DNA of 26,691 bases, taken from contig JALGZR010000045.1 of NCBI GenBank assembly GCA_025774805.1, positions 1-26,691 of the forward strand, given 5' to 3'. Shown here one piece after another: positions 4,572 through 24,758 of this stretch. Numbering within the stretch: the first letter of the stretch is position 1; every line of letters begins with the position of its first letter. Origin of the DNA: a bacterium (GTDB lineage Bacteria > ARS69). Under the pieces are notes generated by a model. The model saw only the letters and a program-made list of their open reading frames with translations. It was not told the DNA's origin and did not search any database. A program made the translations under genes and the position numbers.

Positions 4572-4576
4572 CGCGC

Positions 4577-7788: not shown

Positions 7789-9948
7789 ATGGACCCGTTG
7801 CCTCGCCCTCGGTTCGATCGCCTCGGGCCCGCGGCACCTCTCCTCGTGCTTCTGGGCTCCGGCGCCGCGGCCGACACCCTGACGGACGCGACCATCTCGA
7901 TCGACGCCCGGGATCCGGCCGCGGTCGCGGTCACCCACCGGGTGACGTGGCGGGTGGACGACGCCGCGTTCCGGAAGGGGATCGAGTTCTTTCTCGCGCC
8001 GGAGGTCCGGGTGTCCGCCGTCGGGTCCGAGGGCGAGAGCCTTCCGCTCGATCGGCGCGACGTGCCCGGCGGAAACCTCGTGGGCTGGTCGGTCCGGCTG
8101 CCCTCCCCGCTCTCCTCGGGGGGCACTCGGGTCCTCGAGATCGAGACCGTCGTTCGACCGGAGGGAGGCCCCGGCATCCGTTCCGGTCCGGACGGAGGTC
8201 GGTTACTCCCCGGTTCGGGTTGGTTTCCCCGGCTCACCCCCGAAGCCGGCGAACGGGTCCCCCACTCCCTCTCGTTCGACCTCCCCGCCGGGATGACCGG
8301 GATCGCCGCGGGAACGGCGGGTTCGGCGGCGGAGCCGTGGGTGACCGACAATCCCGTGCGACCCTTCGCGAGCTGGGGACGGTGGACGCGGACGACGCCG
8401 GGAGAGGGGTTCGTCGCGTACCGGCGCGCGGAGAGCACGGGGGAGATCCCCCGGCTCGATCGGATCGCCTCCCTCCTTGACATCCTGGCCACGGGGGCCG
8501 GAGAAGCCGTCGGTGAAGGGAACTGGAAGCTCGTCGACGTCGGTGACGGAGTCCTCGCCGGCGGAGCCCGCACGCTGCTTTGGGACGAGAGTGCCTTCGG
8601 ATCCGAGTCGGACGAAGCGAAGCGCGCCCTCCTCGATCGCGATCTCGCGGGCGCGCTCGCGGCGTCCTACTGGGCGGAGTGCATGCGCTTCACCGGGGAG
8701 TACGCGGCCTGGATGTCGGGCGGAGTGACCCGCTATCTGGGGGATCTCGCGGCCATCGTTCACGACCGCGGCGACGAGACCATTCCGGTGGAAGCGCGCA
8801 TCATAGGATCCCGACGGGCCGCCTTCCTCGAAGGTCGCGGCGACGATCGACCGCTGCGCGGGTTGATCCCGGGCTCCGCGGAGACGGAGCGGCATCTGGA
8901 CACGCGCGGGGCCCTCGTGGCTCACACGCTGGCGGAATGCGCCTGGTCGAGAGGCGATTGGGTGGTGCTTCTCAACGTCTTCCGGCGGGAGCACCTGCAC
9001 GCCGCCGTCGACTGGGCCGCCCTGAAGGCCGCCGCGGCGGAGAGATTCTCCCTCCCGTTCCACGAGCTGGATCCTCTCCTGGACGGCACCGACCTGCCCG
9101 ACTTTCGGATCGTCGATCACGAACCCGAAGAGGGACGCCAGGGCCCCCGCTATCGGGTCGACGTCGAGAACGTCGGCCAGATCGCCGCGTCGGTCGACGT
9201 CGCCGCGTTCGCGGCCGACGGCGAGCTCATCTGGAACTCCCGCGTGTACGTGCCGGCCGGAGGGATGAGGAGCCAGCGATTCATCGAAGCGGGTCGGGTG
9301 GCCCGGATCGTGATCGATCCTCGCGGGCTGGTCCCCCAGCTCCGACTGGACGACGAGGTCGTCGAGCGGACGGGGGCGGGGAGCGGAGAGCCGTGGGTCC
9401 CCTCCTTCCGCTTCTCGACGTCGGCCTCACTCATCTTCGAGGTGCCCGACCTCACGATCGAGCTGAACGGGATCACGATCTCGGGCTTTCACGGAGCCCT
9501 TCAGAAGTGGCAGACCCCTCGCGGTCCGACCGGCGCCTCCCTGATCGGGGAGGGTAAGGTGACGATCGCTCCTCCCGGGGACCTCGCCGCAGACTTCCGG
9601 GAGAACACCGGAAGCGACCGGCTGACCTTCGACGTCGGCGACATCTGGATCCGATTCCCGCCGGCGAAGTGGGGCGAGATCGAGCCGCAGATCGGTAGCT
9701 ATGTCGGGGACTCCGCGGTTCCACCGCTGGTCCGCCGGGCGCGGGCCATCCATCGGAACGCCGCTCTCGACCACTACCAGCGGGGGATCCAGGCCCTGCT
9801 TCCCCCCCCCGGCGGCGCCCTGGCCTGTTTCGCGCTCGAAGGAGAGTCTCTCCGCTGCTTCCTCGCCCAACCGAATCCCGATGGAACGACGAGCATGCGC
9901 CTCTGGGATCACCCGGGGGGAGAGACGCTCTGGGAGAGCACCCGCTGA
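7789..9948 (+). CDS. Secreted M1 peptidase-like protein lacking the zinc motif
   Basis: A 719-residue exported protein. A signal peptide is likely (hydrophobic stretch near residues 13-25, then GAAADT). An N-terminal beta-rich domain (to about residue 200) resembles the first domain of M1 aminopeptidases. A helical part follows (about 230-430). Within it, residues 283-322 (ending AAWMSGGVTRYLGDLAAI) look like the M1 stretch that carries HExxH and then W-x-EGFA-x-Y. The zinc ligands are absent: ASYWAECMRF stands where HExxH would be, and GG replaces the ExG. The KGALVLH-like RGALVAHTLAE follows, then a beta-sandwich tail and an unclassified C-terminal region. It may therefore be a non-catalytic M1 relative, perhaps a scaffold or binder. 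The ATG has GGAGGGG upstream. Its stop overlaps the proposed CTG start of the next gene. Confidence 0.6.
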   Translation: MDPLPRPRFDRLGPAAPLLVLLGSGAAADTLTDATISIDARDPAAVAVTHRVTWRVDDAAFRKGIEFFLAPEVRVSAVGSEGESLPLDRRDVPGGNLVGWSVRLPSPLSSGGTRVLEIETVVRPEGGPGIRSGPDGGRLLPGSGWFPRLTPEAGERVPHSLSFDLPAGMTGIAAGTAGSAAEPWVTDNPVRPFASWGRWTRTTPGEGFVAYRRAESTGEIPRLDRIASLLDILATGAGEAVGEGNWKLVDVGDGVLAGGARTLLWDESAFGSESDEAKRALLDRDLAGALAASYWAECMRFTGEYAAWMSGGVTRYLGDLAAIVHDRGDETIPVEARIIGSRRAAFLEGRGDDRPLRGLIPGSAETERHLDTRGALVAHTLAECAWSRGDWVVLLNVFRREHLHAAVDWAALKAAAAERFSLPFHELDPLLDGTDLPDFRIVDHEPEEGRQGPRYRVDVENVGQIAASVDVAAFAADGELIWNSRVYVPAGGMRSQRFIEAGRVARIVIDPRGLVPQLRLDDEVVERTGAGSGEPWVPSFRFSTSASLIFEVPDLTIELNGITISGFHGALQKWQTPRGPTGASLIGEGKVTIAPPGDLAADFRENTGSDRLTFDVGDIWIRFPPAKWGEIEPQIGSYVGDSAVPPLVRRARAIHRNAALDHYQRGIQALLPPPGGALACFALEGESLRCFLAQPNPDGTTSMRLWDHPGGETLWESTR
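9932..9947 (+). promoter_or_regulatory. Ribosome site and CTG start of the lipoprotein gene
   Basis: GGGAGA (9932-9937) lies 7 nt before CTG at 9945-9947, which overlaps the stop TGA (9946-9948) of the upstream gene. Reading from this CTG gives a complete lipoprotein signal peptide ending in LVGC. The only standard in-frame start (GTG 9993) is inside the lipobox and would destroy the signal. Confidence 0.55.
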
Positions 9949-11069
9949 GGGCGCGAAGCGCGGGCGGAGTCCTCGTCCTGGCCCTGTCCCTCGTGGGCTG
10001 CGGCGGGGTGAAATCGTTTCGAGACTGTACGATGCCCGCCGCACTCGCCCCGGGCGCGATGAGGCACGACTCGGGGAGCGAGGCCGTCTTCCTCGCTGCG
10101 GACGACTTCGAGCTCCGCCCCGGCGGGCTTCGCCTGATCCACGCCGATCGCGCGGCCGTCGCCCCCCCGTTCTCCTGGACCGACGAGGCGGGGGAGACGG
10201 TCTCCCGCGGGAGCCTGGCCGGGCGGGTCGTCTGGATCAACCTCTGGGCCGATTGGTGTGCCACCTGCCGCGCCGAGTTCCCCGGCCTCCAGCGGATCCA
10301 CGACCGGCTCGCGGACCGCGGTCTCGCGCTGCTCGCCGTGTGCCGCAACTCCACGCGCTCCGGCTTCGAGGCGGCCGTCCGGAAGGATTGGCTCACGTTC
10401 CCCGCGATCGACGCGACGCGGGATTCGGACTTCCCCTTTCCCTTCGGGGCGTTTCCCACGAGCGTCGTCCTGGATCGCGCCGGTCGGGTGCGGGCCTACT
10501 GGCAGGGACACCGTTCTCTGGCGGCGGTCGAGACGCTGCTGCGGGATCTGCTCGCCGAGCCCCCGCGACCTCGCGGGCTCGAGCCGGGGGGGGACGGGAG
10601 CCCACGGCCCGCTTCGGTCGCCGACTCCACCCTCTCCCCCCGAGCGTCGGACTCGGTCGTACGGGCCTCTCTCGAGCTGCCGCGCGAGGAGGCCCCCCCC
10701 GGTGAGCTCGTGGAGGGGCGGCTCGTCCTCGACGTCGATCCGGGATGGCATCTCGTCGGCCCGGAGGATCCGGACCTCGCCTCACACCCCCTCGAGATCC
10801 GGATCGAGACGAGCTCCCCTCGGGCGGTCTTCGATCACCTCCGTCCGCTCCCGCGAGAGAGAGAGCTTGCCGGCCTCACCCGGTCGGTCTATTCGGGAAG
10901 AGTCGAGTTTCCGCTCTGGGGCTTCGTGCCGGCGGACGTGCCGCCGGGCCGGCCCCTCGCCCTCGCGGTCCGGACGACGCTTCAGGCGTGCAACGAGACG
11001 AGCTGCCTCCTTCCCGCCGAGATTCTCCTGTCCGGGAACGTCCGGGTCGCCGATCGTTCGGATCGGTGA
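9945..11069 (+). CDS. Lipoprotein: TlpA/ResA-like thioredoxin domain fused to a DsbD-alpha-like domain
   Basis: A predicted periplasm-facing lipoprotein of 374 residues. The first 20 residues form a lipoprotein signal with lipobox LVGC. Residues about 60-200 are a TlpA/ResA-type thioredoxin fold with WCATC (Cys105, Cys108) and a cis-Pro loop (FGAFPTSVVLD). After a Pro/Arg-rich linker, residues about 235-370 match the N-terminal domain of DsbD. They end in QACNETSC (Cys349, Cys354), where DsbD-alpha carries its two redox cysteines. The fusion would join an electron-accepting domain and an electron-delivering domain in one chain, normally fed by a CcdA/DsbD membrane partner not seen here. The start is CTG 9945, because no standard codon lies in frame before GTG 9993. 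It is coupled to the upstream M1-like gene, so the two may act together in the periplasm. Confidence 0.75.
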   Translation: MRARSAGGVLVLALSLVGCGGVKSFRDCTMPAALAPGAMRHDSGSEAVFLAADDFELRPGGLRLIHADRAAVAPPFSWTDEAGETVSRGSLAGRVVWINLWADWCATCRAEFPGLQRIHDRLADRGLALLAVCRNSTRSGFEAAVRKDWLTFPAIDATRDSDFPFPFGAFPTSVVLDRAGRVRAYWQGHRSLAAVETLLRDLLAEPPRPRGLEPGGDGSPRPASVADSTLSPRASDSVVRASLELPREEAPPGELVEGRLVLDVDPGWHLVGPEDPDLASHPLEIRIETSSPRAVFDHLRPLPRERELAGLTRSVYSGRVEFPLWGFVPADVPPGRPLALAVRTTLQACNETSCLLPAEILLSGNVRVADRSDR

Positions 11070-11164: not shown

Positions 11165-12517
11165 ATGCCGAACGCCTCGGAAAGCCAGGACCCGACGGGC
11201 CGGGGAAGGGGGGCACTGCTCCTTCTCTTCCTCGCGCTGATCGTCGTGGTGATCAACGTCTCGAACTGGTTCGTCCTCTCCCGAGTCACCGCCTCGGTCG
11301 ACGAGGAGCTCGGGCTCCGTCTCGTCACGGTGGCCGCCTCCGCCGTGACGACCGCCACGCCGGAGCTTCTCCTCGATCCGGCGGTCGCCGGCGACGAGTA
11401 CGTGCGCCGGGTGCTCCGCGACATCGCGACCCGGCACGAGCTGGAGGACGTTTTCCTGGTGGACACGGACGGGGTCGTGCTCTTCGACCTCGGCGGGGAG
11501 ACGGTCGGCGAGAGGTCCGACCTCGTGGATCTCGAGTTCGCCTCGTTCACCCGGGCGGTGGCCGGCATCCCCGCGGCCTCGCCCTCGCTCGAGATCGGCG
11601 GCGACGTGCTGAAGGCGGGCTACGCCCCGGTCGAGGATTGGGATGGTACGGTGGAGGCGGTGATCGGCGTGACCGCGGGCGGCGGATTTCACGCGCGCGT
11701 TCCCGCCCTGCGGAGGACCCTGCTCGGGATCACGCTGGGAAGCGGAGCGCTGGTGATCCTGCTCGGCGCGCTCTTCTTCGGGATGAGCCGACGGCTCGCC
11801 CGCACGGAGACGGCGCTCGTCCGCGCCGAGACCCTGAGCGCGATGGGGATGATGGCGGCCGGCGTGGCGCACGAGGTCCGCAATCCGCTCGCGATCATCG
11901 CCGGCACGGCGGAGCGGCTCCGCCGCAAGTACGGAACCGGGATAGCCGAAGAGGATCCGCTGTTCGGCTTCATCCCGGAGGAGGTCGATCGCCTCAACGG
12001 AATCGTGAAGGGCTACCTCCGCTTCGCCCGAAACGAGCCGCTCGCATTCGTCGAGTGCGACCTCGCGAAGGCGGTCGAGCGGTCGGCCGGTCTCGTGGCC
12101 GACGAGTTCGCCGGCCGGGGCGTGACGGTGATGCGCGAGGGGTGCGAGGAGCCGGTGCCGGGGCGCGCCGATCCCCAGCGACTGCAGCAGGTGCTGCTCA
12201 ACCTGCTGCTGAACGGAGCCCAGGCGATGCCGGAGGGCGGAACGCTCCGGCTCGCGCTGGAGACGAAAGCGGAAGAAGTACGCATCCGCGTGTCCGACGA
12301 GGGGACCGGTCTCGACGATAAGCAGTTGAGAGGGGCGTTCACGCCCTTCTTCACCACGAAGGAGACGGGGTCGGGACTCGGCCTCGCGATGGCGAAACGG
12401 ATCGTGGAAGGACACGGCGGAACGATCGAGCTCGCGAACCGCCCGGAGGGCGGGGCGATCGTCACGGTTGTGATGCCCCGGCGCGCCCGGTTGCCGGAAG
12501 GGGCGGAGGAGAGCTGA
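11165..12517 (+). CDS. Membrane sensor histidine kinase, NtrB/PrsK-like
   Basis: A 450-residue inner-membrane histidine kinase. TM1 (about 16-38) and TM2 (about 182-204) enclose a roughly 145-residue periplasmic sensor region that looks PDC/Cache-like (FLVDTDGVVLFDLG near residue 100). No clear HAMP or PAS follows. The dimerisation helix carries the phospho-acceptor His236 in GVAHEVRNPL. The ATPase part shows the N box QQVLLNLLLNGAQAM, DEGTGLD (G1), FTPFFTTKETGSGLGLAM (F/G2) and a C-terminal PEGGAIVTVVMP. The style is that of NtrB-type kinases paired with sigma54 regulators. The ATG has GGGGAGG very close upstream. Its stop overlaps the regulator's ATG (TGATG), so the pair is translationally coupled. 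The ligand is unknown but would be sensed in the periplasm. Confidence 0.93.
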   Translation: MPNASESQDPTGRGRGALLLLFLALIVVVINVSNWFVLSRVTASVDEELGLRLVTVAASAVTTATPELLLDPAVAGDEYVRRVLRDIATRHELEDVFLVDTDGVVLFDLGGETVGERSDLVDLEFASFTRAVAGIPAASPSLEIGGDVLKAGYAPVEDWDGTVEAVIGVTAGGGFHARVPALRRTLLGITLGSGALVILLGALFFGMSRRLARTETALVRAETLSAMGMMAAGVAHEVRNPLAIIAGTAERLRRKYGTGIAEEDPLFGFIPEEVDRLNGIVKGYLRFARNEPLAFVECDLAKAVERSAGLVADEFAGRGVTVMREGCEEPVPGRADPQRLQQVLLNLLLNGAQAMPEGGTLRLALETKAEEVRIRVSDEGTGLDDKQLRGAFTPFFTTKETGSGLGLAMAKRIVEGHGGTIELANRPEGGAIVTVVMPRRARLPEGAEES

Positions 12518-13896
12518 TGGCATCGATCCTGGTCGTGGACGACGAGCGGAAGATCACCACGCTCCTCGAGGGGGAGCTGACCGACGCCGGCCACGAGGTG
12601 ACCGTGGCGAACGACGGGGATGACGCGATTCGCCGGCTCGGGACGAAGCGCTTCGACGTGGTGCTCACCGATCTCCGTCTCGGGGGGACCGACGGGCTCG
12701 AGGTTCTCCGCCGGGCGAGGGAGATCGACCCGGAGACCACGGTGCTCCTGATGACCGCATACGCCACGGTGCAGACCGCGGTCGCCGCGATGAAGGAGGG
12801 GGCCGCCGACTACCTCGAGAAGCCGCTGAACCTCGACAAGACTCGACGCGTCATTTCGCAGGCGCTCGAGTCGCGCCGGCTCGCGGAGGAGAACCGCCGT
12901 CTTCGGGAGAGGATGCTCGCGGGCGAGGTCGGAACGGACACGATGGTGCGGGGGAAGAGCGCGGCGATGCGCGACGTGATGGCCCTCGTCGAAAAAGTCG
13001 CGCCGAGCGAGGCGACGGTGCTCCTCACCGGCGAGAGCGGAACGGGGAAGGACGTCGTGGCCCGGGCGATCCACGAACTCAGCACGCGCCGGGAGCAGTC
13101 GCTCGTGACGGTGAACTGCGCCGCCCTGGCCGAGACGCTGCTGGAGTCGGAGCTCTTCGGGCACGAGAAGGGCGCGTTCACCGACGCCTCCGAGCGCAAG
13201 CTCGGATGGTTCGAGGTCGCGAAGGGGGGAACGATCTTCCTCGACGAGATCGGGGAGATGAAGCCCTCGACGCAGGCGAAGCTGCTTCGGGTGCTCGAGG
13301 ACCGGCGCTTCCACCGGCTCGGGGGCTCCACGATCATCGAGGCCGACGTCCGAATCGTGGCGGCGACGAATCGCGACCTCGAGCGGGAGATCGAGAGCGG
13401 ACGCTTCCGCGAGGACCTCTTCTATCGGCTCAACGTCTTTCCGATTCCGCTCCCTCCGCTGCGCGAGCGCCTCGACGATCTCGACGAGCTCTGCGATCAC
13501 TTCCTGAGGCGATGCCGGTACGCGGGTCCGGGGCTCGACCCGGAGGCGAGGGCGGCGCTGGCCGGGTACGACTGGCCCGGAAACCTGCGGGAGCTGCGCA
13601 ACGTGATCGAGCGCGCGGTCATCCTCGCGGGAGAGGGTCCGGTCACCACGGCCGAGATCCACATTCCGCGGCGGCAGCGGTCGAAGGCCGGGGAAGGGGG
13701 GGCCGCGGTGGCCGGAGAGGAGAGCGGGGGGGCCGGAGCCTCGAGCCTCGCGGCGGAAGAGGAGCGGATGATCCGGGAGGCCCTCGCGAGGGCGGGAGGC
13801 AACAAGTCGAAGGCCGCCCGAATCCTGGGAATCACCCGTCGGGCGCTCTACGGCCGCCTCGAGCGGTACGGAATCGAGGGCGGGGAGAAGGGGTGA
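12517..13896 (+). CDS. Sigma54-dependent response regulator, NtrC family
   Basis: A 459-residue activator with the full three-domain layout. The receiver (1-120) has acidic pocket residues Asp8/Asp9, phospho-acceptor Asp52 in VLTDLRL, and Lys in YLEKPL. The AAA+ domain (about 145-385) has Walker A GESGTGK at 172-178, the sigma54-contact loop at 219-224, Walker B TIFLDEIGEM and the FREDLFYRLNVFPI region. A Fis-type helix-turn-helix at the C-terminus contains NKSKAARILGITRRALYGRL. The contact loop reads GAFTDA instead of GAFTGA, a variant that also occurs in natural regulators. A long Gly/Ala-rich linker joins the AAA+ and DNA-binding domains. The protein would bind an upstream palindrome and use ATP to open sigma54 promoters; both a palindrome and such a promoter lie directly downstream of the gene. 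Confidence 0.95.
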   Translation: MASILVVDDERKITTLLEGELTDAGHEVTVANDGDDAIRRLGTKRFDVVLTDLRLGGTDGLEVLRRAREIDPETTVLLMTAYATVQTAVAAMKEGAADYLEKPLNLDKTRRVISQALESRRLAEENRRLRERMLAGEVGTDTMVRGKSAAMRDVMALVEKVAPSEATVLLTGESGTGKDVVARAIHELSTRREQSLVTVNCAALAETLLESELFGHEKGAFTDASERKLGWFEVAKGGTIFLDEIGEMKPSTQAKLLRVLEDRRFHRLGGSTIIEADVRIVAATNRDLEREIESGRFREDLFYRLNVFPIPLPPLRERLDDLDELCDHFLRRCRYAGPGLDPEARAALAGYDWPGNLRELRNVIERAVILAGEGPVTTAEIHIPRRQRSKAGEGGAAVAGEESGGAGASSLAAEEERMIREALARAGGNKSKAARILGITRRALYGRLERYGIEGGEKG

Positions 13897-13929
13897 TCCC
13901 GTCCGCGGCGCTGTCCTTGGGGGTCCGGA

Positions 13930-13949
13930 AGTGTCCCCTGGGGGACACT
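13930..13949. promoter_or_regulatory. Inverted repeat, likely activator binding site (UAS)
   Basis: Perfect 9-bp arms (AGTGTCCCC and GGGGACACT) are separated by 2 bp. The site starts 34 bp after the response regulator gene, and its centre is about 124 bp upstream of the start expected from the sigma54 promoter at 14037-14053. That is the usual distance for NtrC-family enhancers. An AT-rich stretch (about 13982-14016) lies between the two and could aid DNA bending. No T-run follows the arms, so a terminator is less likely. Confidence 0.65.
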
Positions 13950-14036: not shown

Positions 14037-14053
14037 CTGGCACGCGAGCTGCA
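14037..14053 (+). promoter_or_regulatory. Sigma54 (-24/-12) promoter
   Basis: CTGGCACG-N4-CTGCA matches the sigma54 consensus YTGGCACGRNNNTTGCW at all but two positions. The key GG (14039-14040) and GC (14051-14052) have the required spacing. Transcription would start near 14064, about 40 nt before the ATG at 14103, with GAGGAGAGAG as the ribosome site. It follows a sigma54-type regulator gene on the same strand. Confidence 0.8.
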
Positions 14054-14102: not shown

Positions 14103-15155
14103 ATGAGACGCCGACGCAAGCCCCCGCTCCGGACGCTCGTCGCGTGGACCGTCCTGCTCCTTCTGGCGTCGGGGAGCGCCGCGCCGGCGCAGACCGACTC
14201 GCGCCTCGGGGACCAGCTCCAGCGGACCGACGAGGCCCTGGCCCGGGCCGGCGAGATCGTGCGCGAGAGCGAGTCGCTCCGCGCCCGGGAGACCTTCGAG
14301 CAGGCGTTGAATCTCCAGAAGATCGCGTGGGAGAAGTTCCGCGAGCGCCAGCTCCTCGTCTCGGCCCGCCTCACCGGCGAGGCGCGGAATCTGGGCGCGC
14401 GGGCCGTCACCATGGCCCGGGAGGACGCGCAGCTCCGGGCCCGGGCCCGCCGCGAGGGGGAGGCGGCGGAGCTCGCTCTGCAGCGCGCGCGCGAGGAGCT
14501 CGGCCCCGCCGCGAGCCCCTCGGCCCGCCTCCTCTTGGAAAGGGCCCGCTCGCAGATCGAGCGGGGTCGGGTCCAGTTCCACGAGCAGCACTACGAAGCG
14601 GCCCTCCGCCTCGCGATCTCCGCGCAGCGACTCATCCGCCAGGCGCTCGGGGCGGGACTGAATGACGGCGCCCTCGGGTCCCGAGTTCTCCGGGAGCTCG
14701 AACGCACGGATCACCTGATCGATCGGGCGAGGACGATCGTCGGCGACGGCGACGATCCCGAGGCCCGCGAGCTCCTGGAGAGGGCCGCGGACCTCCAACA
14801 CAACGCCTGGAGCCACTACCGGGAGGGCCGCCATCGTGTCGCCCAGGCGACGACCCGGGAGGCCCGGAGCCTCCTTCAGCGGGCGGTGTCCCTCGTCCAG
14901 GGATCGGTGGACCCCGATCGAGTGGAGAGAGCGGTCGCGGAGACGGATCGGCTGCTCGGACGCGTCGCAGAGCTGGTGCGGGACTCCGGCGACGAGGGCG
15001 CGGCCCGGACGCTCGAGAACGCCCTCGAACAGCAGAGGCAGGCGAAGGACCTTCTGCGCGAGGGCCAGCTCCGGGCGGCGTTGGCCAAGACCCGCGTCGC
15101 CCGCCGGCTCGCCACGCGCGCCGCCGGCATGGTCGAGACGGGGGATTCGCGGTGA
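14103..15155 (+). CDS. Secreted helical protein with four tandem repeats
   Basis: I do not recognise this 350-residue protein. A signal peptide is clear: basic MRRRRK, a hydrophobic core near 12-22, then ASGSAAPAQ. The mature chain is almost all charged, amphipathic helix with very few Pro or Gly. Four related units can be aligned at residues about 39-105, 122-183, 197-267 and 275-345, with a period near 78. Each has a helix with an E-R-T-D or A-L-x-R-A pattern, a short break, then a long helix with Q-x-x-A-x-x-x-x-R-E-G/E-x, then an (A)LxxAxxARxLxxRA helix. The build recalls helical-hairpin or TPR-like scaffolds. It is the first gene after the sigma54 promoter, and its stop overlaps the start of the next gene, an outer-membrane barrel. 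A periplasmic partner of that barrel is the simplest guess. Confidence 0.8.
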   Translation: MRRRRKPPLRTLVAWTVLLLLASGSAAPAQTDSRLGDQLQRTDEALARAGEIVRESESLRARETFEQALNLQKIAWEKFRERQLLVSARLTGEARNLGARAVTMAREDAQLRARARREGEAAELALQRAREELGPAASPSARLLLERARSQIERGRVQFHEQHYEAALRLAISAQRLIRQALGAGLNDGALGSRVLRELERTDHLIDRARTIVGDGDDPEARELLERAADLQHNAWSHYREGRHRVAQATTREARSLLQRAVSLVQGSVDPDRVERAVAETDRLLGRVAELVRDSGDEGAARTLENALEQQRQAKDLLREGQLRAALAKTRVARRLATRAAGMVETGDSR

Positions 15156-16474
15156 CTCGCTCCCTCCTGCTCGGAGTCGGGGGGGCGATGCTCGTCACCC
15201 TGTCCGGCGCGGGGGCGGAGTCGACCGAGGGGAAGATCGCCGTCACTCCGAGAGTCGGCGTCGACTTCGAGCACTTCGGCGAGACCTTCCGAGTCACCGA
15301 CACCCGGGACACCGTCGCCACGATCAACGACCTCGGGACGATCGTCGGGCTGACCGTGCAGAGCGGTTCTCCCGGAGCGAGCTCCTTCCGGCTCGATACC
15401 GACTTCCACTACGGCCGGCAGACGCACCGCGTCCGCCTCGATTTCGAGGGCCGGCTTCGCAGTGGTGCGAACACCTGGGAGCTCGAGCACGACGGCTCCT
15501 ACCGCGTCTTCTCCGAGGAGGGGGACTACGCGCTCTCGGGGGACTATCTCCAGGACTACGTGCGCCTCACCTGGGAGCGGCGACTGACCGAGGCCCTGCG
15601 CTTCCGGCTGCGCAACGTCCTCGACTTGACCTGGTACGAGGACCCCGACGAGTACAACCTGACCTCGACCCGGTACCGCCCTTCGGCCGACGTGCGATTC
15701 GCGTTCGGCGATCTCAGCGAGCTGCGGGCGGGGTACGAGCTCGGCCGGCGGACGGTCCCCGATTCGACCTCCCTCAATCACTGGCGGCACGTCGGGCAGG
15801 CGGATCTCTCCCTGCTCTTCGGGTGGACGTCGTCCCTCGACGTCTCGGAGCGAATCGAGAGGCGCGTCTATCCCGAGGGAAGCGTGCGCGAGAGCTCTTG
15901 GGAACATCGCGCGGACATCACCTTCGAGTTCTCCACCGGGGACCGGACGACCTTTCGAGTCGTTCAGGAGAACGAAGTGATCCGGTACGACGAGCCGGAT
16001 GATCTCGACTTCGACTCGGAGTGGGCCCGCACCGGCTTCCAGGTCGAGATTCACCGCACCCGGAATCTCGATCTCTCTCTCATGCCGGTCTACGCGTTCC
16101 TGACGAGCGACGGGGCGCCCGAGGAGGAGTACACCGAGACGGGCCTCGAGTTCGGGATCGACTGGCGGATCGGCGACCACACCTGGATCAATCTCACGGA
16201 CGAGGTCGGGCGCCGGGACTACGAGATCGGTGCGAACCCGGTCGACCGGCCCGAGATCGACAGCATTGCGTCCCTCGCCGCGGACGACGCGTTCGCTCTC
16301 GACACGGCGTTCTCCGACTATGTGTACAACCGCCTCACGCTCCTCCTCACCTCCCAGGTCTCGCCCGGGATCTCCGCGGATCTTTTCGTGAACTGGCAGC
16401 CCGAGAATCACCACGTGAACCGGCACGACACCGACACCCGGATCGTCTCCGGAGGGTTCGAGTACCGTTTCTGA
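15152..16474 (+). CDS. Outer-membrane beta-barrel protein of unknown function
   Basis: A 440-residue exported protein with a signal peptide (MTRSLLLGVGGAMLVTLSGAGA). The rest is built of alternating hydrophobic/polar strands about 10 residues long, rich in Tyr, Trp, Arg, Asp and Glu, such as TFRVVQENEVIRYDE and DLFVNWQPENHHVN. It ends in FEYRF; a terminal Phe after alternating residues is the usual BAM recognition signal. Strand count suggests a barrel of 16 or more strands, but I could not count them exactly. No plug, TonB box or known porin signature was seen. The GTG start overlaps the upstream repeat protein's stop (GTGA), so the pair is translationally coupled and shares the sigma54 promoter. 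Confidence 0.78.
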   Translation: MTRSLLLGVGGAMLVTLSGAGAESTEGKIAVTPRVGVDFEHFGETFRVTDTRDTVATINDLGTIVGLTVQSGSPGASSFRLDTDFHYGRQTHRVRLDFEGRLRSGANTWELEHDGSYRVFSEEGDYALSGDYLQDYVRLTWERRLTEALRFRLRNVLDLTWYEDPDEYNLTSTRYRPSADVRFAFGDLSELRAGYELGRRTVPDSTSLNHWRHVGQADLSLLFGWTSSLDVSERIERRVYPEGSVRESSWEHRADITFEFSTGDRTTFRVVQENEVIRYDEPDDLDFDSEWARTGFQVEIHRTRNLDLSLMPVYAFLTSDGAPEEEYTETGLEFGIDWRIGDHTWINLTDEVGRRDYEIGANPVDRPEIDSIASLAADDAFALDTAFSDYVYNRLTLLLTSQVSPGISADLFVNWQPENHHVNRHDTDTRIVSGGFEYRF

Positions 16475-16638: not shown

Positions 16639-17472
16639 GTGACTGATCTCGCCCGGCCGGTACCGTTCCGGCGCCTTCGCCCTCTCCGCTCTCTCGCGCG
16701 CTCTCTCGTGCTGACCGTCCTTCTCAGCGGATGTGCCGCGATCGGCCAGATGAACATCTTCTCCGAGGAGCAGGAGCTCGCCATGGGCGCGCAGTTCGCC
16801 GCCGAGCTCGAAAAGGAGCTCACGTTCATCGACGATCCGGAGGTCGTCGGTTACATCGACAGGCTCGGGCAGTCCCTGGCGCGTGTATCGAAGCGGAGCC
16901 ACCTCACGTATCGCTTTCACGTCGTCGACACCGACGACGTGAACGCCTTCGCCGTTCCCGGCGGCTACCTCTACGTGAACCGCGGTCTGATCGAGGCGGC
17001 GGACAGCGAGTCGGAGCTCGCCGGGGTGCTCGGTCACGAGATCGGGCACGTGGTGGGAAAGCACAGCGCCCGCCAGCTCAGTCAGCAGTATGGACTCTCG
17101 CTTCTCGCTTCGATGGCCCTCGGCGAGGAGCCCGGCATGCTGAAACAGCTCACCGCCCGGATCATCGCCACCGGGGCGCTCACCCGCTACAGCCGGGAAA
17201 TGGAGTCGGAGGCCGACAGCTACGGAGTTCAGGAGCTGTACGATGCCGGCATCGATCCGAACGGCCTCGCGACTTTTTTCGGCAAGCTCGAGGAAATGCG
17301 CGGCGGTCGCGGGAGCGGCGCCCTCGAGATGTTCTTCTCGACCCACCCGGACCCGGGAGATCGGGCCAATGCCGTCCGTTCGCAGATCGCCGCGCTCCCG
17401 GCCAAGCCCGGTCTGCGGGCGGATTCCCCCCGCTTCCACGAGATCCAGGACCGGGTGAAGAGAGGGAACTAG
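16639..17472 (+). CDS. M48 family zinc metalloprotease lipoprotein (BepA/LoiP-like)
   Basis: A 277-residue predicted periplasm-facing lipoprotein with lipobox LLSGC (Cys32). The M48 catalytic site is complete: HEIGH at 133-137 within VLGHEIGHVVGKHSAR, and the third zinc ligand in MESEADSYG (Glu191). NAFAVPGGYLYVNRGLI upstream of the zinc site and FFSTHPDPGDRANAV near the C-terminus are also typical of the family. Its length fits single-domain relatives such as LoiP/YcaL rather than BepA, which adds a TPR domain. Such enzymes degrade misassembled outer-membrane proteins, so its place after a barrel gene is suggestive. The GTG start at 16639 has CGGAGG 6 nt upstream. The 164-bp gap before it contains TTGACG at 16576 but no good -10. 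Confidence 0.92.
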   Translation: MTDLARPVPFRRLRPLRSLARSLVLTVLLSGCAAIGQMNIFSEEQELAMGAQFAAELEKELTFIDDPEVVGYIDRLGQSLARVSKRSHLTYRFHVVDTDDVNAFAVPGGYLYVNRGLIEAADSESELAGVLGHEIGHVVGKHSARQLSQQYGLSLLASMALGEEPGMLKQLTARIIATGALTRYSREMESEADSYGVQELYDAGIDPNGLATFFGKLEEMRGGRGSGALEMFFSTHPDPGDRANAVRSQIAALPAKPGLRADSPRFHEIQDRVKRGN

Positions 17473-18210: not shown

Positions 18211-18935
18211 TCGTGGTCGGTCCTTCGCTCATGGCCGTGAACGCCACCCGCGACACCGTCCTGGCGCAAAGGCTGGAGTGGGCCGGGACGAGTGACACGA
18301 GGCGACGAGGCCTCCTGGGCCGGACCGAGTTCCCGGCGGGCGAGGGGCTCTACCTCGTGCCCTGCAAGTGGATTCACATGTACGGCATGAAGTTCGCGAT
18401 CGACGTAGCCTTCCTGGGAAGCGATGGGCGAATCCTCGCCGTACACGAGGGTCTTCGCCCCAACCGCCTTTCGCGACCGGTCTTCCGCGCCGAAGGGGTA
18501 CTCGAGCTGCCCGAGTCCACTCTCCGGCGCACCGGGACCCGCGTCGGAGACACCGTCCGGTTCACGGAAGCGGACGTCGACGGGGCCGTTTCGTGTTCCG
18601 ACCTGTCCGATCCGGCGAAGCCGGAGAACGGAATTCGTCAGGAGTGTCGATCCTCGACGGATCGACCTGTGCAACGGGTGAACAGATGCTCGGCTCCGTT
18701 GCGACCTTCCTCGGACGCGCGATCTCAGCGGCGGCAACTCTCGACCGCTCGACGCTCGACCGTCCGAGTTCTCTTCGAGTTGTGCCGTCCGAGAACAGCG
18801 TGCGGAAATGTTGCGCATTCGAAGCGAGCCCGCGTTGACGATCTGCAACTCTCGCACAAGAAGAACCCATTCCCATCACGAATGCAACTACCGTGTGCAA
18901 TTCGTGTTACTCGAAAGGCGCTTGAAGTCTCATGA
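18207..18935 (+). CDS. DUF192 family protein with an unusual C-terminal extension
   Basis: Residues about 15-120 match DUF192: TRRRGLLGRTEFPAGEGLYLVPCKWIHMYGMKFAIDVAFL, with the family's glycine-rich start, the WIHMYGM core and the later FLGSDGRIL strand. The function of the family is not established. The GTG start overlaps the stop of the upstream small secreted protein. The reading frame stays open for another 115-120 codons, to 18935. That part is Arg/Ser-rich, uses AT-ending codons far more than its neighbours (for example AGA, CTA, CAA, GTT) and has no domain-like pattern. A normal DUF192 protein would end near 18600, so the last 330 nt may be non-coding DNA open by chance, or reflect a lost stop. 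The domain is sure; the 3' end is not. Confidence 0.7.
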   Translation: MIVVGPSLMAVNATRDTVLAQRLEWAGTSDTRRRGLLGRTEFPAGEGLYLVPCKWIHMYGMKFAIDVAFLGSDGRILAVHEGLRPNRLSRPVFRAEGVLELPESTLRRTGTRVGDTVRFTEADVDGAVSCSDLSDPAKPENGIRQECRSSTDRPVQRVNRCSAPLRPSSDARSQRRQLSTARRSTVRVLFELCRPRTACGNVAHSKRARVDDLQLSHKKNPFPSRMQLPCAIRVTRKALEVS

Positions 18936-18951
18936 GCGGATGGTTTAGGAT
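18922..18951 (+). promoter_or_regulatory. Candidate sigma70 promoter for the tad operon
   Basis: TTGAAG (18922-18927) and TAGGAT (18946-18951) are separated by 18 bp; each matches its consensus at four of six positions. A start near 18958 would give a leader of about 110 nt before flp. It is the best promoter-like pair I saw upstream of the tad genes, but it is not strong. Confidence 0.38.
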
Positions 18952-18999
18952 CTCCCTACGTCGGACGAAGACTCGAGTGATCGAGACTCTCATCCGGAC

Positions 19000-19037
19000 C
19001 ACGTGTCGCTCCCGTAAGGGGCCCGCCCTGACACGTG
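19000..19037. promoter_or_regulatory. Inverted repeat in the flp leader
   Basis: CACGTGTC (19000-19007) and GACACGTG (19030-19037) are exact complements with a 22-nt loop that itself contains CCC and GGGG runs able to pair. The structure ends 30 nt before the flp start. It could be an operator, an mRNA stabiliser for the highly expressed pilin, or an attenuator. Confidence 0.4.
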
Positions 19038-19067
19038 AATGCTGCCAAACACGGAAAGGATCCTACG

Positions 19068-19229
19068 ATGAACTTCCTGCTCCGAGTCCTCCGCGAAGAC
19101 GACGGTCAGGACATGATCGAGTACGCGCTTCTCGGTTCCTTCATCTCCATCGTGGCCATCGTCGCCCTGCGTGCGATCGGCCCGCTCGTGAACACCGTGT
19201 ACGAAGGAATCCAGGCGGCTCTCACCTGA
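19068..19229 (+). CDS. flp: Flp-type class IVb prepilin
   Basis: A 53-residue major pilin precursor. It has a short leader ending in DDG, then the class IVb cleavage motif G/XXXXEY: cleavage after Gly gives QDMIEYALLGSF, with Glu at +5 and Tyr at +6. A single hydrophobic helix (about 18-37) follows, with a short polar tail. After cleavage by the TadV peptidase encoded next, the helix packs into the Flp pilus filament. The ATG at 19068 is chosen over an in-frame GTG at 19035 because AAAGGA precedes it and the leader length is then normal. It is the first gene of the tad operon, preceded by a structured leader. Confidence 0.93.
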   Translation: MNFLLRVLREDDGQDMIEYALLGSFISIVAIVALRAIGPLVNTVYEGIQAALT

Positions 19230-19277
19230 TCCTGACGACGAAACCGACCAGGGAATGCGGTCCCGGAGGTTCTGACG

Positions 19278-19814
19278 ATGCAAGAGTCCACTCCATCCGT
19301 GATCATCGGGTGCGTGACCTTGAGCCTACTGATCGGAGCCATGGTGATCGACGTCCGGAGCCGCCGCATCCCGAACTGGCTCACTCTTCCCGCTTTGGGC
19401 GCCGGGCTGGCCGTACGGTCCATCTGGGGGGGGCCACAGGAACTCCTCATGGGGGTGGCGGGGGTCTTCGCGGCCCCCGCCTGTCTCCTGTTCCTGCGGG
19501 GGTTCCGTCCCCTGGGAATGGGCGACATGAAACTTGCCGCAGCCATCGGGGCGCTCCTGGGACCGAAGGTCGGTGCCCTGGCGATGGTCATCTCCGGAGT
19601 CGCGGGCGGTCTCCTCGCGATCGGGTACCTGTTCCGAACGAAATCGACGGCCCTGAGCCTTTTTTCGCCGTTCTTCATCGGCGTGCCGTTCCTGAAACGG
19701 CCCTTCACGAATGCGGAAGCGTCCGAGGAACCGGAAGAGCCGGTCGCGATCCCCTACGGAGTCGCGATCGGGGCCGGAACCTTGCTGACCGCCGCATTCG
19801 TGTGGGTAAGGTGA
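19278..19814 (+). CDS. tadV: Prepilin peptidase TadV/CpaA
   Basis: A 178-residue polytopic inner-membrane aspartyl protease (A24 family) that removes the leader from Flp pilin and the TadE/TadG pseudopilins. The two catalytic aspartates are seen at Asp25 (MVIDVRSRRIPN) and Asp83 in the GMGDMK motif, with hydrophobic helices between and after. It lacks the N-terminal methylase domain of PilD, as TadV proteins do. A charged loop near 142-156 (NAEASEEPEEP) precedes the last helix. The ATG has CGGAGG 8 nt upstream. The stop overlaps a possible GTG start of tadE (GTGA). Confidence 0.93.
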   Translation: MQESTPSVIIGCVTLSLLIGAMVIDVRSRRIPNWLTLPALGAGLAVRSIWGGPQELLMGVAGVFAAPACLLFLRGFRPLGMGDMKLAAAIGALLGPKVGALAMVISGVAGGLLAIGYLFRTKSTALSLFSPFFIGVPFLKRPFTNAEASEEPEEPVAIPYGVAIGAGTLLTAAFVWVR

Positions 19815-19819
19815 CCGAG

Positions 19820-20221
19820 ATGCCGCGCTCGATTCTCCGCAGCGACCGTGGCCAGGCCCTGATCGAATTCGCGCTCGTTCTGCCGCTTCTCCTGCTCCTC
19901 GTATTCGGCATCACGGAATTCAGCCGGGCCTGGATGACGGTGAACGTTCTGACCTCGGCGGCGCGCGAGGGAGCCCGGCTCGCGGTCGTCACCGAACCGG
20001 ACCAGGATCGCGTCATCGCGCGGGTCAACGAGGTCTGTACGTCGTCCCGGGTCACTCCGACGGCGATCACGATCACCGGGCCGGATCCTGCCGACGTGGA
20101 GCGCCGGGTCACCGTGGAGGTCGAAGCCGACTTCCAGGTCCTTCCGGGTGAGATCCTGGGGACCTTCTCCGGCACGATCCCGCTTCGCGCAAGATCGATC
20201 ATGCGTCATGAGTCCTTTTGA
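19820..20221 (+). CDS. tadE: TadE-like pseudopilin
   Basis: A 133-residue pseudopilin. SDRGQALIEFALVLPLLLLLVFGI carries the class IVb-like site, with cleavage after Gly, Glu at +5 and Phe in place of Tyr at +6, followed by one membrane helix. The remaining periplasmic domain (AAREGARLAVV, then strands) is typical of the TadE fold. It is processed by TadV and helps Flp pilus assembly. The ATG at 19820 has AGGTG 6 nt upstream. GTG 19811, which overlaps the tadV stop, would add three residues. Confidence 0.88.
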   Translation: MPRSILRSDRGQALIEFALVLPLLLLLVFGITEFSRAWMTVNVLTSAAREGARLAVVTEPDQDRVIARVNEVCTSSRVTPTAITITGPDPADVERRVTVEVEADFQVLPGEILGTFSGTIPLRARSIMRHESF

Positions 20222-20245
20222 GTCGACCACGTGGGAGGCACGTGC

Positions 20246-21139
20246 ATGAAGGAAAGGGACGCCACAGAGAGAGCGGGGGTTGCTTTGCTCAAGGATCGAA
20301 TCGAGTCAACGGACACGAAGGGTCTGGTGATCCTGATCGTATCCGTGGTCTTGGCCGGTCTCTGCGCGGGGGGCCTCTACCTCTACATGAAGAACGCAAC
20401 TCCGATCGCGAGTGTCGAGCCGCCGAAGGTGGTTCCGGTCGTGGTCGCGACAAAGGACTTGACGTTCGGGACGGTCTTGCAGCGGGAGCACCTGAAGCAG
20501 GTCGACTTCCCGCCGGAATCGGTCCCTCGAGGTTACTACTCCGATCTCGACAGCGTGGTGAACCAGAGCACACGGGTCTTCCTGATCGAAGGAGAACCGG
20601 TGCTGGGATCCAAGTTGTCCTCGATCGGGGGAGGACTCTCGCTGCGGATTCCGGAGGACAAACGGGCCATCAGCCTGAGCGTGAACGAGATCACGGGAGT
20701 GAACGGCTTCGTGCTTCCCGGTGATCGCGTCGACGTCCTCGTGACCGTCGACAACGCCAAGGGATCCAACGTCGCGGTCACGGAGACCATCCTGCAGAAC
20801 ATCGAGGTCCTCGCCTCGGGATCCAAGACGGAGACGAAACGGAATCACCAGATCACCGTTCAGACGGTCACGCTGATCGTGGACACGGAAGGAGCCGAGG
20901 CCCTGGCGCTGGGAATGCACCAGGGGGAGGTGAATCTCGTGTTGCGCAACCCGGTGGACACCAAGATCGTCGCGACGAAACTGACGGACACGAAGTCCGT
21001 GCTGGACCTCTACACGACGCGGACGTCGTCGTACAAGCGGCCGTCCACGACGAAGAAGGCTCCGGATCCGGAACCTTCGTACACGATCATCCGGAATGGA
21101 AACATCACGCATCAGTCCTCGCCGGAGAAGAACAAGTAG
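20246..21139 (+). CDS. cpaB: Flp pilus assembly protein CpaB/RcpC
   Basis: A 297-residue periplasmic protein anchored by an N-terminal membrane helix (about 26-47). A SAF-type domain follows (VVVATKDLTFGTVLQREHL, then GEPVLGSKL), and next the family's RAISLSVNEITGVNGFVLPGDRVDVLVT segment. The central beta domain ends with VTLIVDTEGAEALALGMHQGEVNLVLR. The C-terminus is basic and low-complexity (TRTSSYKRPSTTKKAPDPEP). It is thought to help the CpaC secretin or guide the pilus through the periplasm. The ATG at 20246 is preferred over GTG 20231 because GGGAGG lies 7 nt before it. Confidence 0.92.
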   Translation: MKERDATERAGVALLKDRIESTDTKGLVILIVSVVLAGLCAGGLYLYMKNATPIASVEPPKVVPVVVATKDLTFGTVLQREHLKQVDFPPESVPRGYYSDLDSVVNQSTRVFLIEGEPVLGSKLSSIGGGLSLRIPEDKRAISLSVNEITGVNGFVLPGDRVDVLVTVDNAKGSNVAVTETILQNIEVLASGSKTETKRNHQITVQTVTLIVDTEGAEALALGMHQGEVNLVLRNPVDTKIVATKLTDTKSVLDLYTTRTSSYKRPSTTKKAPDPEPSYTIIRNGNITHQSSPEKNK

Positions 21140-21203
21140 CAATTCCGCGGAGGGTCACCCCGAGGGACCCTTCAGGTGATCGCCCCGTGAAACGGAGCCT
21201 TCT

Positions 21204-22400
21204 ATGATTCTCAGGCGCGCGCGACTCTCTCATCCTCGATGGCCGGGGATGCCGATCGTCCTTCTGGCGGGCTGGATTCTGGCACTCGTTCCGAACGAGG
21301 CACGAGCTCAGCCGGCGGCCGAGCCACCGGCCAAGCTCAACGTGACCGTCGGGCAGTCGATCACGCACCGACTGCGGACGGCCGTGAAGACGGTCTCCAT
21401 CGCGGATTCGGACATCGCCGACGTCGTCGTCGCGGGGCCCCAGGAAATCCTCATCAACGGGAAGGAGATCGGGAGGACGACCCTCGTGATCTGGGATGCG
21501 GTGGACGTGTCCACGACCCTCGATCTCGTGGTGCGAGGTCAGTTCAGCGAGCAGAAGATCGAGCTCCGAGTCCAGCTGGCCGAAGTGAATCACTCTCGAG
21601 CAAAAGAAACGGGTCTGGATGCGCTCTTCGAGACGAACCGACTGGATGATCAGGTGCAGGCGGGCTCCTACGCCGGCAACGTCGACACGCCCAGCATCCC
21701 TCTGTCCATTTTCGGAGGGGCGGCGACCGAGGGGGCGGATATCGCGCTCCGGTGGGTGCACGGCAGGGAAGAGATCTCGACCATGGTCCGGGCGATGGTG
21801 GCGGAGGGGGTGATTCGCGTTCTCGCGAAACCCAACGTGGTCGCCGCGAGCGGTGAGAAGGCGTCCTTCCTCTCGGGAGGGGAAATTCCGGTGCCGGTGG
21901 CGAGCTCGGGGTCGACCGGAGGAAGCACCGTGACCATCGAATGGAAGGAGTTCGGGGTCAAGGTCGCGTTCGTGCCGACGATCGTCGACGACGGCGTGAT
22001 CAGCCTGAAGGTCGCTCCGGAGGTGTCGAGCCTCGACTTCGGGAACGGAATCGAACTCAGCGGATTCCGGATTCCGGCCCTCCGATCCCGAAAGGCCAGT
22101 ACGACGGTGGAACTGAAGGACCGGGAGACGCTGGTGATCGGCGGACTCCTCATGGAAGAAGAGACGGATTTCGAGACGAAGATCCCCATTCTCGGGGACA
22201 TCCCGCTCCTCGGATACTTCTTCCGGAGTCAGCAGGCCGCCACGACGATCAGCGAGCTCATGCTGGTGGTGTCTCCCCGAATCGTCCGGCCGCTCGCCCC
22301 GGGGAGGGACGTTCCGCTCCCGACCGACGGGCTGGACGTGCCGGAGGTGATTCCCCGGGACCGAGACCGGGAATTCCGGTCCGAGAGCTTCGGAGGCTGA
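21204..22400 (+). CDS. cpaC: Flp pilus secretin CpaC/RcpA
   Basis: A 398-residue outer-membrane secretin. A signal peptide (hydrophobic core about 17-30, cleaved near ARAQ) is followed by the N-terminal pilus-secretin domain (LNVTVGQSITHRL, VVVAGPQEILINGKEIGRTTLVIWD). A short BON-like/N1 region follows, then the secretin domain: VRVLAKPNVVAASGEKASFLSGGEIPVPV, EFGVKVAFVPTI and TTVELKDRETLVIGGLL, ending in the characteristic VPLLGYFFRS-like and ELMLVVSPRIVRPL strings. It forms the ring through which the Flp pilus exits. The ATG has CGGAG 6 nt upstream. The 64-bp gap before it contains AGGGTC/GACCCT arms (9-nt loop) without a T-run. Confidence 0.95.
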   Translation: MILRRARLSHPRWPGMPIVLLAGWILALVPNEARAQPAAEPPAKLNVTVGQSITHRLRTAVKTVSIADSDIADVVVAGPQEILINGKEIGRTTLVIWDAVDVSTTLDLVVRGQFSEQKIELRVQLAEVNHSRAKETGLDALFETNRLDDQVQAGSYAGNVDTPSIPLSIFGGAATEGADIALRWVHGREEISTMVRAMVAEGVIRVLAKPNVVAASGEKASFLSGGEIPVPVASSGSTGGSTVTIEWKEFGVKVAFVPTIVDDGVISLKVAPEVSSLDFGNGIELSGFRIPALRSRKASTTVELKDRETLVIGGLLMEEETDFETKIPILGDIPLLGYFFRSQQAATTISELMLVVSPRIVRPLAPGRDVPLPTDGLDVPEVIPRDRDREFRSESFGG

Positions 22401-22401
22401 G

Positions 22402-23535
22402 ATGAAAGCGCGGGAGGGAAGCAGGAACAGTCGACGTGCCGGGCCTGTCCGTCTCCTCCTCCGGGACGAGAGGGGAAGCACGCTCATCATGGTCACGGTG
22501 GCGTTCCTCGCCCTCGCCGCGCTGACCGGCATCGCCATCGATTCGGCGGTCATGTGGACCACGAAGACCCAGCTCCAGAACGCGGCGGACGCCAGCGCGC
22601 TGGCGGGGGCCTCGGGTCTCATCGAGGGGTCCGAAGACCTGGCCGTGAGCCGGGCCATCGAGATCGCCGCCGCCAACCGCGCGGTTCAGGACGCGGGGGG
22701 TGCACCGGTGGTCATCACCCCCGAGGATGTGGAGTTCCCGGAGCCCGATATGATCCGGGTCACCGCGCACCGCACCCGGGCGAGCGGAGATCCGCTCCGC
22801 CTGTTCTTCCGCCGAATCGTGGAGCCCGCCAGCGACAACCTCGCCGATGTGACCGCGGTGGCCGCGGCCCGCGCCTACAGCGTTTGCGGGGCGCGCTGCG
22901 TCAGGCCGTGGGCGATCCCCGACCGCTGGGACGACGCCAACGACAACGGAGAGTACGACGAGGGAGAGTACTACCACCCGGAGGGAACCGGGTACGTGGC
23001 CGACCTCGACGTCGGCGCTCAGATCACTCTCAAGGTCGGCAACCCCCAGCAGGCGATCGAGCCCGGGATCTTCTACCCGATCAACTTTCCCCCGCTCGAT
23101 TCCGACATGGGCAATCCGCTGACCGGCGGGGACTGGTATCGGGAGTGGATTTCGGAGTGCGCGCCGTTTCTGGTGCAGATCGGTGATCGTCTCCAGCTCG
23201 AGCCGGGCAACATGGTCGGTCCCACCCGCCAGGGAATGGACGCGTTGATCGCCCAGGATCCGTCCGCATACTGGGACTCCACATTCGAGACGGTGTCCGG
23301 ATCCGCCTACGCCTTAAGCCCTCGGATCGGACTCGTGCCCCTGTTCGATCCGACCCTGCCTCCGGAGTCGGGACGCAACTGGGTGACCGTCACCAAGATC
23401 GGCGCCTTCTTCATCGAGGAGACGGGTCCCGGAGGAGAGGTCACCGGTCGCTTCATCGACACCATAACCGCCGGCAGTGAATGCGAGGAAGGCTCGGGGG
23501 GCGGTTTCGTCATGGGCATCACACTCACTGAATAG
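22402..23535 (+). CDS. tadG: TadG-like pilus assembly protein with an EF-hand-like loop
   Basis: A 377-residue membrane-anchored protein. A TadE/G-like N-terminus (RDERGSTLIMVTVAFLALAALTGIAID) gives one helix, followed by the family's MWTTKTQLQNAADASALAGA motif. The periplasmic part includes a perfect 12-residue calcium-loop pattern at 178-189: Asp178, Asn180, Asn182, Gly183, Asp186 and Glu189 occupy positions 1, 3, 5, 6, 9 and 12. Two cysteine pairs are possible (SVCGARCVRPW and later single Cys). No von Willebrand A domain or MIDAS motif, found in many TadG proteins, was seen. The ATG is 1 nt after the cpaC stop, with CGGAGG upstream. It likely acts in the assembly or tip complex of the pilus. 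Confidence 0.83.
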   Translation: MKAREGSRNSRRAGPVRLLLRDERGSTLIMVTVAFLALAALTGIAIDSAVMWTTKTQLQNAADASALAGASGLIEGSEDLAVSRAIEIAAANRAVQDAGGAPVVITPEDVEFPEPDMIRVTAHRTRASGDPLRLFFRRIVEPASDNLADVTAVAAARAYSVCGARCVRPWAIPDRWDDANDNGEYDEGEYYHPEGTGYVADLDVGAQITLKVGNPQQAIEPGIFYPINFPPLDSDMGNPLTGGDWYREWISECAPFLVQIGDRLQLEPGNMVGPTRQGMDALIAQDPSAYWDSTFETVSGSAYALSPRIGLVPLFDPTLPPESGRNWVTVTKIGAFFIEETGPGGEVTGRFIDTITAGSECEEGSGGGFVMGITLTE

Positions 23536-23552
23536 TGATTAGGGAGGGCCGC

Positions 23553-24755: not shown

Positions 24756-24758
24756 CCC

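Follow-up and report, generated by a model that had tools for sequence, protein, structure and literature searches.

A helical-repeat protein, a predicted outer-membrane barrel and a lipoprotein linked by gene order and by a putative σ54-dependent promoter

Results

The locus

The window, which is the whole stretch of DNA analysed here (26,691 nucleotides), carries on its forward strand the genes of a sensor histidine kinase (11165..12517), of an NtrC-type σ54 response regulator (12517..13896), of an apparently exported helical-repeat protein of 350 aa, hereafter HR (14103..15155), and of a predicted 20-stranded outer-membrane β-barrel, hereafter BB (15152..16474), whose start overlaps the HR stop. 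Between the regulator and HR genes lie a palindrome, TGTCCCCTGGGGGACA (13932..13947), which is a putative activator (UAS) site, and a forward-strand σ54 -24/-12 element, TGGCACGCGAGCTGCA (14038..14053), the palindrome being 106 bp upstream of this element. The barrel gene is followed on the same strand by that of an M48 metalloprotease lipoprotein of the BepA/LoiP kind (16639..17472, start codon approximate), whose score with the NCBIfam BepA model (3.9e-41) is yet far below the curated cut-off. The protease gene follows the barrel in genome G004 also (L019), and its membership of the cassette is uncertain.

The kinase gene is preceded by those of a 719-residue apparently exported protein without Pfam match (7789-9945) and of a TlpA-like/DsbD-N protein (9993-11066), homologues of which are found in the same order in L012 and L013. 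A Tad/Flp pilus gene set occupies positions 18932-26144 and includes a TadE-like protein (by reading), RcpC/CpaB, a secretin, a Tad-like protein, a receiver-ParA protein (CpaE-like) and a T2SSE ATPase.

Four three-helix units in HR

The N-terminus of HR, MRRRRKPPLRTLVAWTVLLLLASGSAAPAQ, reads by eye, without a predictor, as a signal peptide, which probably covers residues 1-29 (14103..14189) and ends in AAPAQ; helix 10-21 of this region is of low confidence in the AlphaFold2 model. The ungapped self-comparison of mature HR gives its top offsets at 160, 239 and 80, with scores of 109, 89 and 72 against a best score of 42 in 500 shuffles, and no other high offsets. With gaps allowed, the best self-alignment reaches 156, and 200 shuffles reach 74 at most. 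The repeat is thus significant, and the four helical units of the original prediction are confirmed, with a period of about 80 residues instead of about 78. A unit profile built from the family detects exactly four units in the window HR (i-E-values from 1e-24 to 3e-33): residues 30-108 (14190..14426, 9.7e-29), 110-187 (14430..14663, 1.1e-24), 191-268 (14673..14906, 3e-33) and 270-345 (14910..15137, 1e-27). The borders previously drawn at 39-105, 122-183, 197-267 and 275-345 were each a little short. The profile was built partly from the window HR's own four units, so that the independent support comes from the repeated units, some of them weak, which the same profile detects in relatives outside the profile-building set. 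According to this profile, HR contains four units in the window family and in candidate division GN15 and about five in the phylum of G007; in the phylum of G080, its length corresponds to about six units, some of which are weakly detected.

The AlphaFold2 model of HR, obtained from a six-sequence alignment (pLDDT 88.6, pTM 0.48), contains 11 helices after the signal region: 27-56, 59-80, 84-133, 139-160, 164-185, 189-215, 219-240, 244-266, 271-295, 298-319 and 323-346. The expected helical repeats are therefore found, with three helices per unit and a long helix, 84-133, common to units 1 and 2. The pTM of 0.48 indicates that the units are well predicted and that their mutual arrangement is uncertain, so that a rigid rod would go beyond the model.

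One HR unit superposes on the three-helix bundles of the uranyl-binding protein 4fzp and the DUF357-like 2pmr with 1.4-1.8 Å over about 73 residues; the VIA comparison gives Z 11.2-11.6 and 1.8-2.9 Å over 73-81 residues. These two are single-domain proteins without sequence relationship to HR above cut-off: DUF357 (PF04010) is absent from the Pfam matches of the window HR, and the G080 relative reaches 12.4 bits for a cut-off of 29.4. A VIA Z below about 13 can reflect an arrangement common among helical bundles, and no function of HR can therefore be drawn from 2pmr or 4fzp. Spectrin-like tandem repeats, such as those of EzrA, resemble HR by their three-helix units placed end to end and by a long helix running across two units, as 84-133 does in the model; they differ from the HR units of about 80 residues, EzrA aligning only with 24 Å rmsd, and there is no sequence match. 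Whole-chain fold matches in the structure search (TM about 0.2) are without meaning.

HR has no family above cut-off in Pfam, NCBIfam or PHROGs, in agreement with the earlier view that it belongs to no named family. Nor is it a TPR protein by family test, which agrees with the original reading: the best TPR profile of Pfam, TPR_12, gives 12.9 bits for a cut-off of 30.1 (E 0.13), and the self-comparison, which peaks at 80, 160 and 239 only, lacks the 34-residue two-helix period. No match to a ZraP or CpxP-Spy-type family was found in Pfam or NCBIfam. HR is charged, rich in Ala, Arg and Glu, and devoid of cysteine; its top matches among PDB sequences are only designed helical proteins, the best of which, 5cwm (5.6e-6), probably reflects helical composition. 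The HR of G007 (L016 8585-9913) gives a weak NCBIfam match to PhoU (8.6e-05), far below cut-off, which is probably a helical resemblance only.

The barrel

The AlphaFold2 model of BB (pLDDT 85.3, pTM 0.77) is a closed barrel of 20 amphipathic strands, the chain ending with the aromatic residue of a C-terminal YRF, and its best structural matches by Foldseek are outer-membrane barrels of the PDB. No named family was found for BB in Pfam, NCBIfam or PHROGs, and no match among PDB sequences. A weak DUF2860 match of BB (E 0.11) falls short of its cut-off and was discarded. An MtrB-like cytochrome conduit was rejected as well, since the match to MtrB, which tops the Foldseek list, is a generic barrel match and HR has no cysteine. 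A crude strand-alternation count gives 27 K/R against 33 D/E among the predicted inward-facing residues, a pore which is by this count not electropositive.

Relatives, gene order and LipX

A single-sequence scan of named genomes gave no HR relative; an alignment-based search gave three named HR loci, in Gemmatimonadota DHS20C21, Gemmatimonadetes HKST-UBA01 and candidate division GN15. In the window's own phylum, HR is present in all five sampled genomes. The order kinase, NtrC-type regulator, HR, BB is kept in G001, G002 and G003, and the locus of G004 is split between one contig with the kinase, the regulator and the start of HR and another with the end of HR, BB and the M48 protease. The GN15 contig has this same order at about 30% HR identity.

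A third family, the lipoprotein LipX, accompanies HR and BB in other lineages. G010 and G061, which belong to a second small phylum, have HR, BB and LipX in this order. In the phylum of G080, where 23 of 40 genomes possess HR, LipX stands beside HR in nearly all loci, with the order HR-LipX-BB or LipX-HR-BB; in the larger stretches of these loci, a BB match (most loci) or an ORF that resembles a barrel and ends in an aromatic residue follows. HR is also found in 11 of 17 genomes of the G007 phylum, G007 itself having HR and BB on different contigs. The members of the LipX alignment share 31-40% identity with its first sequence, and searches of Pfam, NCBIfam and PDB sequences gave nothing above cut-off for LipX. 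No LipX was found in G007 or in the genome of the window, whose assembly consists of 284 contigs. In G001-G004, LipX lies away from the HR operon, behind a σ54 element which is accompanied by an exact palindrome in G003 and G004 and by a palindrome with 1 or 2 mismatches in G001 and G002. In L017 (5808-8537) and L031 (3661-6390), the gene following LipX encodes a 909-residue predicted membrane protein.

Among 116 sampled genomes, BB occurs in seven and HR in eight, and all seven BB genomes have HR. When the five genomes of the window family are collapsed, BB is present in 3 of 112 and HR in 4 of 112, an overlap for which we calculate a chance probability of about 2e-5. G049 has HR, very divergent, with a full promoter, and neither BB nor LipX was detected there. 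The coupling of HR to a barrel gene, noticed originally in the window, is upheld by the gene overlap, by the same order in other phyla and by this co-occurrence; the original picture had overlooked the σ54 promoter, the palindrome, the two-component regulator and LipX.

The promoter

The palindrome belongs to a class that we define as TGT(A/C)CC-N4-GG(G/T)ACA, of which no description was found in the literature searched. A possible second copy, TGTCCTTGGGGGTCCG (13912..13927), degenerate and recognised by reading the sequence, stands 20 bp upstream of the main one, and tandem copies are likewise visible beside the main palindrome in the operons of G150, G129, G080 and G160. The class is rare: pattern searches find three copies in the window's 5.1 Mb genome, one of them before HR, and none to four copies in each of nine related or HR-bearing genomes. 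A copy precedes HR in G000, G007, G010, G049 and G060 (genome search) and in G080, G129, G160 and G170 (from the loci), and HR operons of 6 phylum-level groups share the palindrome in their upstream regions. The σ54 element of the window, which has equivalents in relatives, scores 20.1, a value reached by none of 200 Markov-shuffled upstream regions.

The upstream regions of 35 HR or LipX operons were scanned for both elements and compared with shuffled regions. The best palindrome match has at most two mismatches in 33 of them, three in one and four in one, and in 34 of the 35 the best σ54-like match is found downstream of it. About a dozen operons have a weak σ54 element (shuffle p above 0.05), most of them with TTGA, TTGT or TGTA in place of TGC in the -12 part; GN15 is also among these, and there the match with the highest score (at -11) is unlikely to be the promoter. 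The spacings between palindrome and σ54 element range from 90 to 147 bp and fall into groups near 90-94, 102-107, 111-116, 122-125, 132 and 146-147, which repeat about every 10.9 bp, as in helical phasing (R 0.59 for 32 gaps; R 0.56, p 0.002 for 23 unique gaps). The figure for unique gaps is the safer one, because related operons share ancestry. Furthermore, the composite pattern palindrome-N74-104-TGGCAY gives seven matches in 38 genomes against one control match, and six of the seven are HR operon promoters. A reading of the palindrome as the terminator of the regulator gene was rejected, since it stands elsewhere upstream of HR, LipX and the kinase-regulator genes and since its distance to the σ54 element is kept. 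Judging from sequence, we hold this σ54/palindrome regulatory architecture to be highly probable.

The pattern occurs before a few other genes. The seventh composite match, in G155, precedes the gene of a short secreted WXXGXW-repeat protein (L194 1144-1464, minus strand). In G010, a palindrome (L056 2587-2602) and a σ54 element precede a DUF4382 lipoprotein gene that starts at about 2836. Another exact palindrome of the window's genome (L054 5522-5537, G000 C49) is found upstream of Poly_export and Wzz genes (4517-5428 and 3074-4501, minus strand), with no recognisable σ54 element near it in L054.

The two-component system

The kinase contains HisKA (8.1e-10) and HATPase_c (1.2e-24) domains according to Pfam, and two apparent membrane helices, seen by sequence reading only, surround an extracytoplasmic segment. 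It has an orthologue adjoining the regulator in GN15 and in the family's four other genomes; in G049 and G129, the kinase adjoining the regulator is homologous to that of the window over nearly the whole length. The regulator combines Response_reg (1e-26), Sigma54_activat (5.1e-71) and HTH_8 (1.4e-13) domains, the latter being a Fis-type HTH with the recognition helix ITRRALYGRLE. A helix of the form (T/S)RRx(L/I)Y is present in the window, GN15 (ITRRRLYSRM), G010 (MSRRRLYSRM), G049, G170, G160, G007 and G129; ITRRx(L/I)YS is found in the best regulator match of G049, G170, G007 and G129 and in a lower-ranked match of G160. This HTH type is thus kept in most of the HR-bearing genomes examined in other phyla, even where the regulator is unlinked to HR. 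In G080, no regulator with a matching helix was found among the regulator tails read. A different NtrC-type regulator, with another HTH, adjoins HR in G171 and G173, so that adjacency to HR alone is no proof. In G010 and G061, the kinase and regulator genes are not beside HR and are themselves preceded by the palindrome, which suggests autoregulation. The two-component system encoded next to HR is the probable switch of the operon.

Discussion

The model towards which we lean, with restrained confidence, is that of a σ54-switched envelope assembly of HR, BB and LipX in which HR would be the periplasmic adaptor. An envelope signal would be perceived by the sensor kinase, which would phosphorylate the NtrC-type regulator. 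The binding of the regulator to the TGT(A/C)CC-N4-GG(G/T)ACA palindrome would activate the σ54 promoter about 100 bp downstream, and HR, BB and LipX would be produced on demand as one envelope assembly. HR, made of four tandem three-helix units, would form a rod-like, extended adaptor from the barrel into the periplasm, and the relatives with five or six units would represent longer versions of it. The repeats, the fold class, the gene order, the co-occurrence, the promoter architecture with its conservation and the co-conserved regulator helix are computational findings; we infer the periplasmic location of HR, its contact with BB and LipX, the binding of the regulator to the palindrome and the adaptor role itself. 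Sequence reading or structure prediction gives the cassette products either an export signal or a barrel fold, so that the most economical account is an outer-membrane assembly in which HR is the periplasmic adaptor. A functional partnership of HR and BB is likely, and a physical complex between them is plausible. The signal peptide, the tandem units of three helices and the pairing with a barrel are all compatible with the periplasmic scaffold, perhaps reaching the outer membrane, that was originally imagined for HR. The assembly may serve the upkeep of the envelope, or export.

A bolder and more doubtful proposal is that HR, BB and LipX constitute a new kind of trans-periplasmic outer-membrane machine, switched by a σ54-dependent two-component system in at least six phylum-level lineages. 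If so, the number of three-helix units would determine how far it extends. Gene order, co-occurrence and a promoter that is nearly unique connect three families for which no named model exists (the helical repeat, the barrel and the lipoprotein); the lineages concerned are represented here mostly by fragmented genome assemblies. The palindrome and the σ54 element predict the regulator, the regulon and a route to the inducing condition, and this handle makes the function of the cassette testable.

An envelope stress response of the ZraPSR kind is a somewhat unlikely alternative, in which the kinase-regulator pair would induce HR as a chaperone-like or feedback protein of the periplasm, and the barrel and lipoprotein would be co-induced repair parts and not binding partners of HR. 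The E. coli regulator ZraR, which depends on σ54, controls a very small regulon tied to envelope stress: it switches on the chaperone ZraP as well as its own genes (PMC7657598). The cassette has the same layout, with an NtrC-type regulator, a σ54 promoter for an exported helical target beside the regulator genes (by sequence), a small regulon, and the autoregulation suggested here in G010 and G061; the ZraS/ZraR and AtoS/AtoC models give good scores for the kinase and the regulator. The all-helical, charged and apparently exported HR and the BepA/LoiP-like protease gene after the barrel point in the same direction. However, family searches do not identify HR as a homologue of ZraP, HR matches no metal-resistance or CpxP/Spy-type family in Pfam, the cassette palindrome was not found described, and the cassette operon includes a barrel and a lipoprotein whose presence in the same operon across phyla argues for a shared structure. 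ZraP is, moreover, unlike a tandem array of four to six units.

Less probable still is a role in polymer export, in which HR and BB would be a two-chain analogue of AlgK-AlgE, the periplasmic helical-repeat protein guiding a polysaccharide towards the porin in the outer membrane. In that system, the lipoprotein AlgK, which contains TPRs and sits in the outer membrane, and the barrel AlgE are separate chains believed to form a complex, and an electropositive path has been described in AlgEK (PMC9734138). The predicted structures of HR and BB reproduce the association of an exported helical-repeat protein or domain with an outer-membrane barrel seen in AlgK-AlgE, PelB, PgaA and BcsC, and the palindrome before the Poly_export and Wzz genes in the window's genome would agree with such a role. 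On the other hand, that palindrome lacks a visible σ54 element, the HR units are three-helix units of 80 residues and not TPRs, BB has 20 predicted strands, and its inward-facing residues are, by the crude count given above, unlike the electropositive AlgEK path. Furthermore, neither a glycosyltransferase nor a synthase was recognised among the neighbouring ORFs looked at in the cassette loci, of which a part were identified.

That HR is an unremarkable charged coiled-coil or TPR linker placed beside a barrel by chance, as its Ala/Arg/Glu-rich composition and the weak TPR_12 match might suggest, is very improbable, the cut-offs being missed, the period being that of 80-residue three-helix units, and the BB pairing and promoter conserved across phyla contradicting it.

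In the G080 phylum, the longer barrels may carry an HR-like hairpin at their N-terminus: only two of 16 score above all of 320 shuffles, which is suggestive at most.
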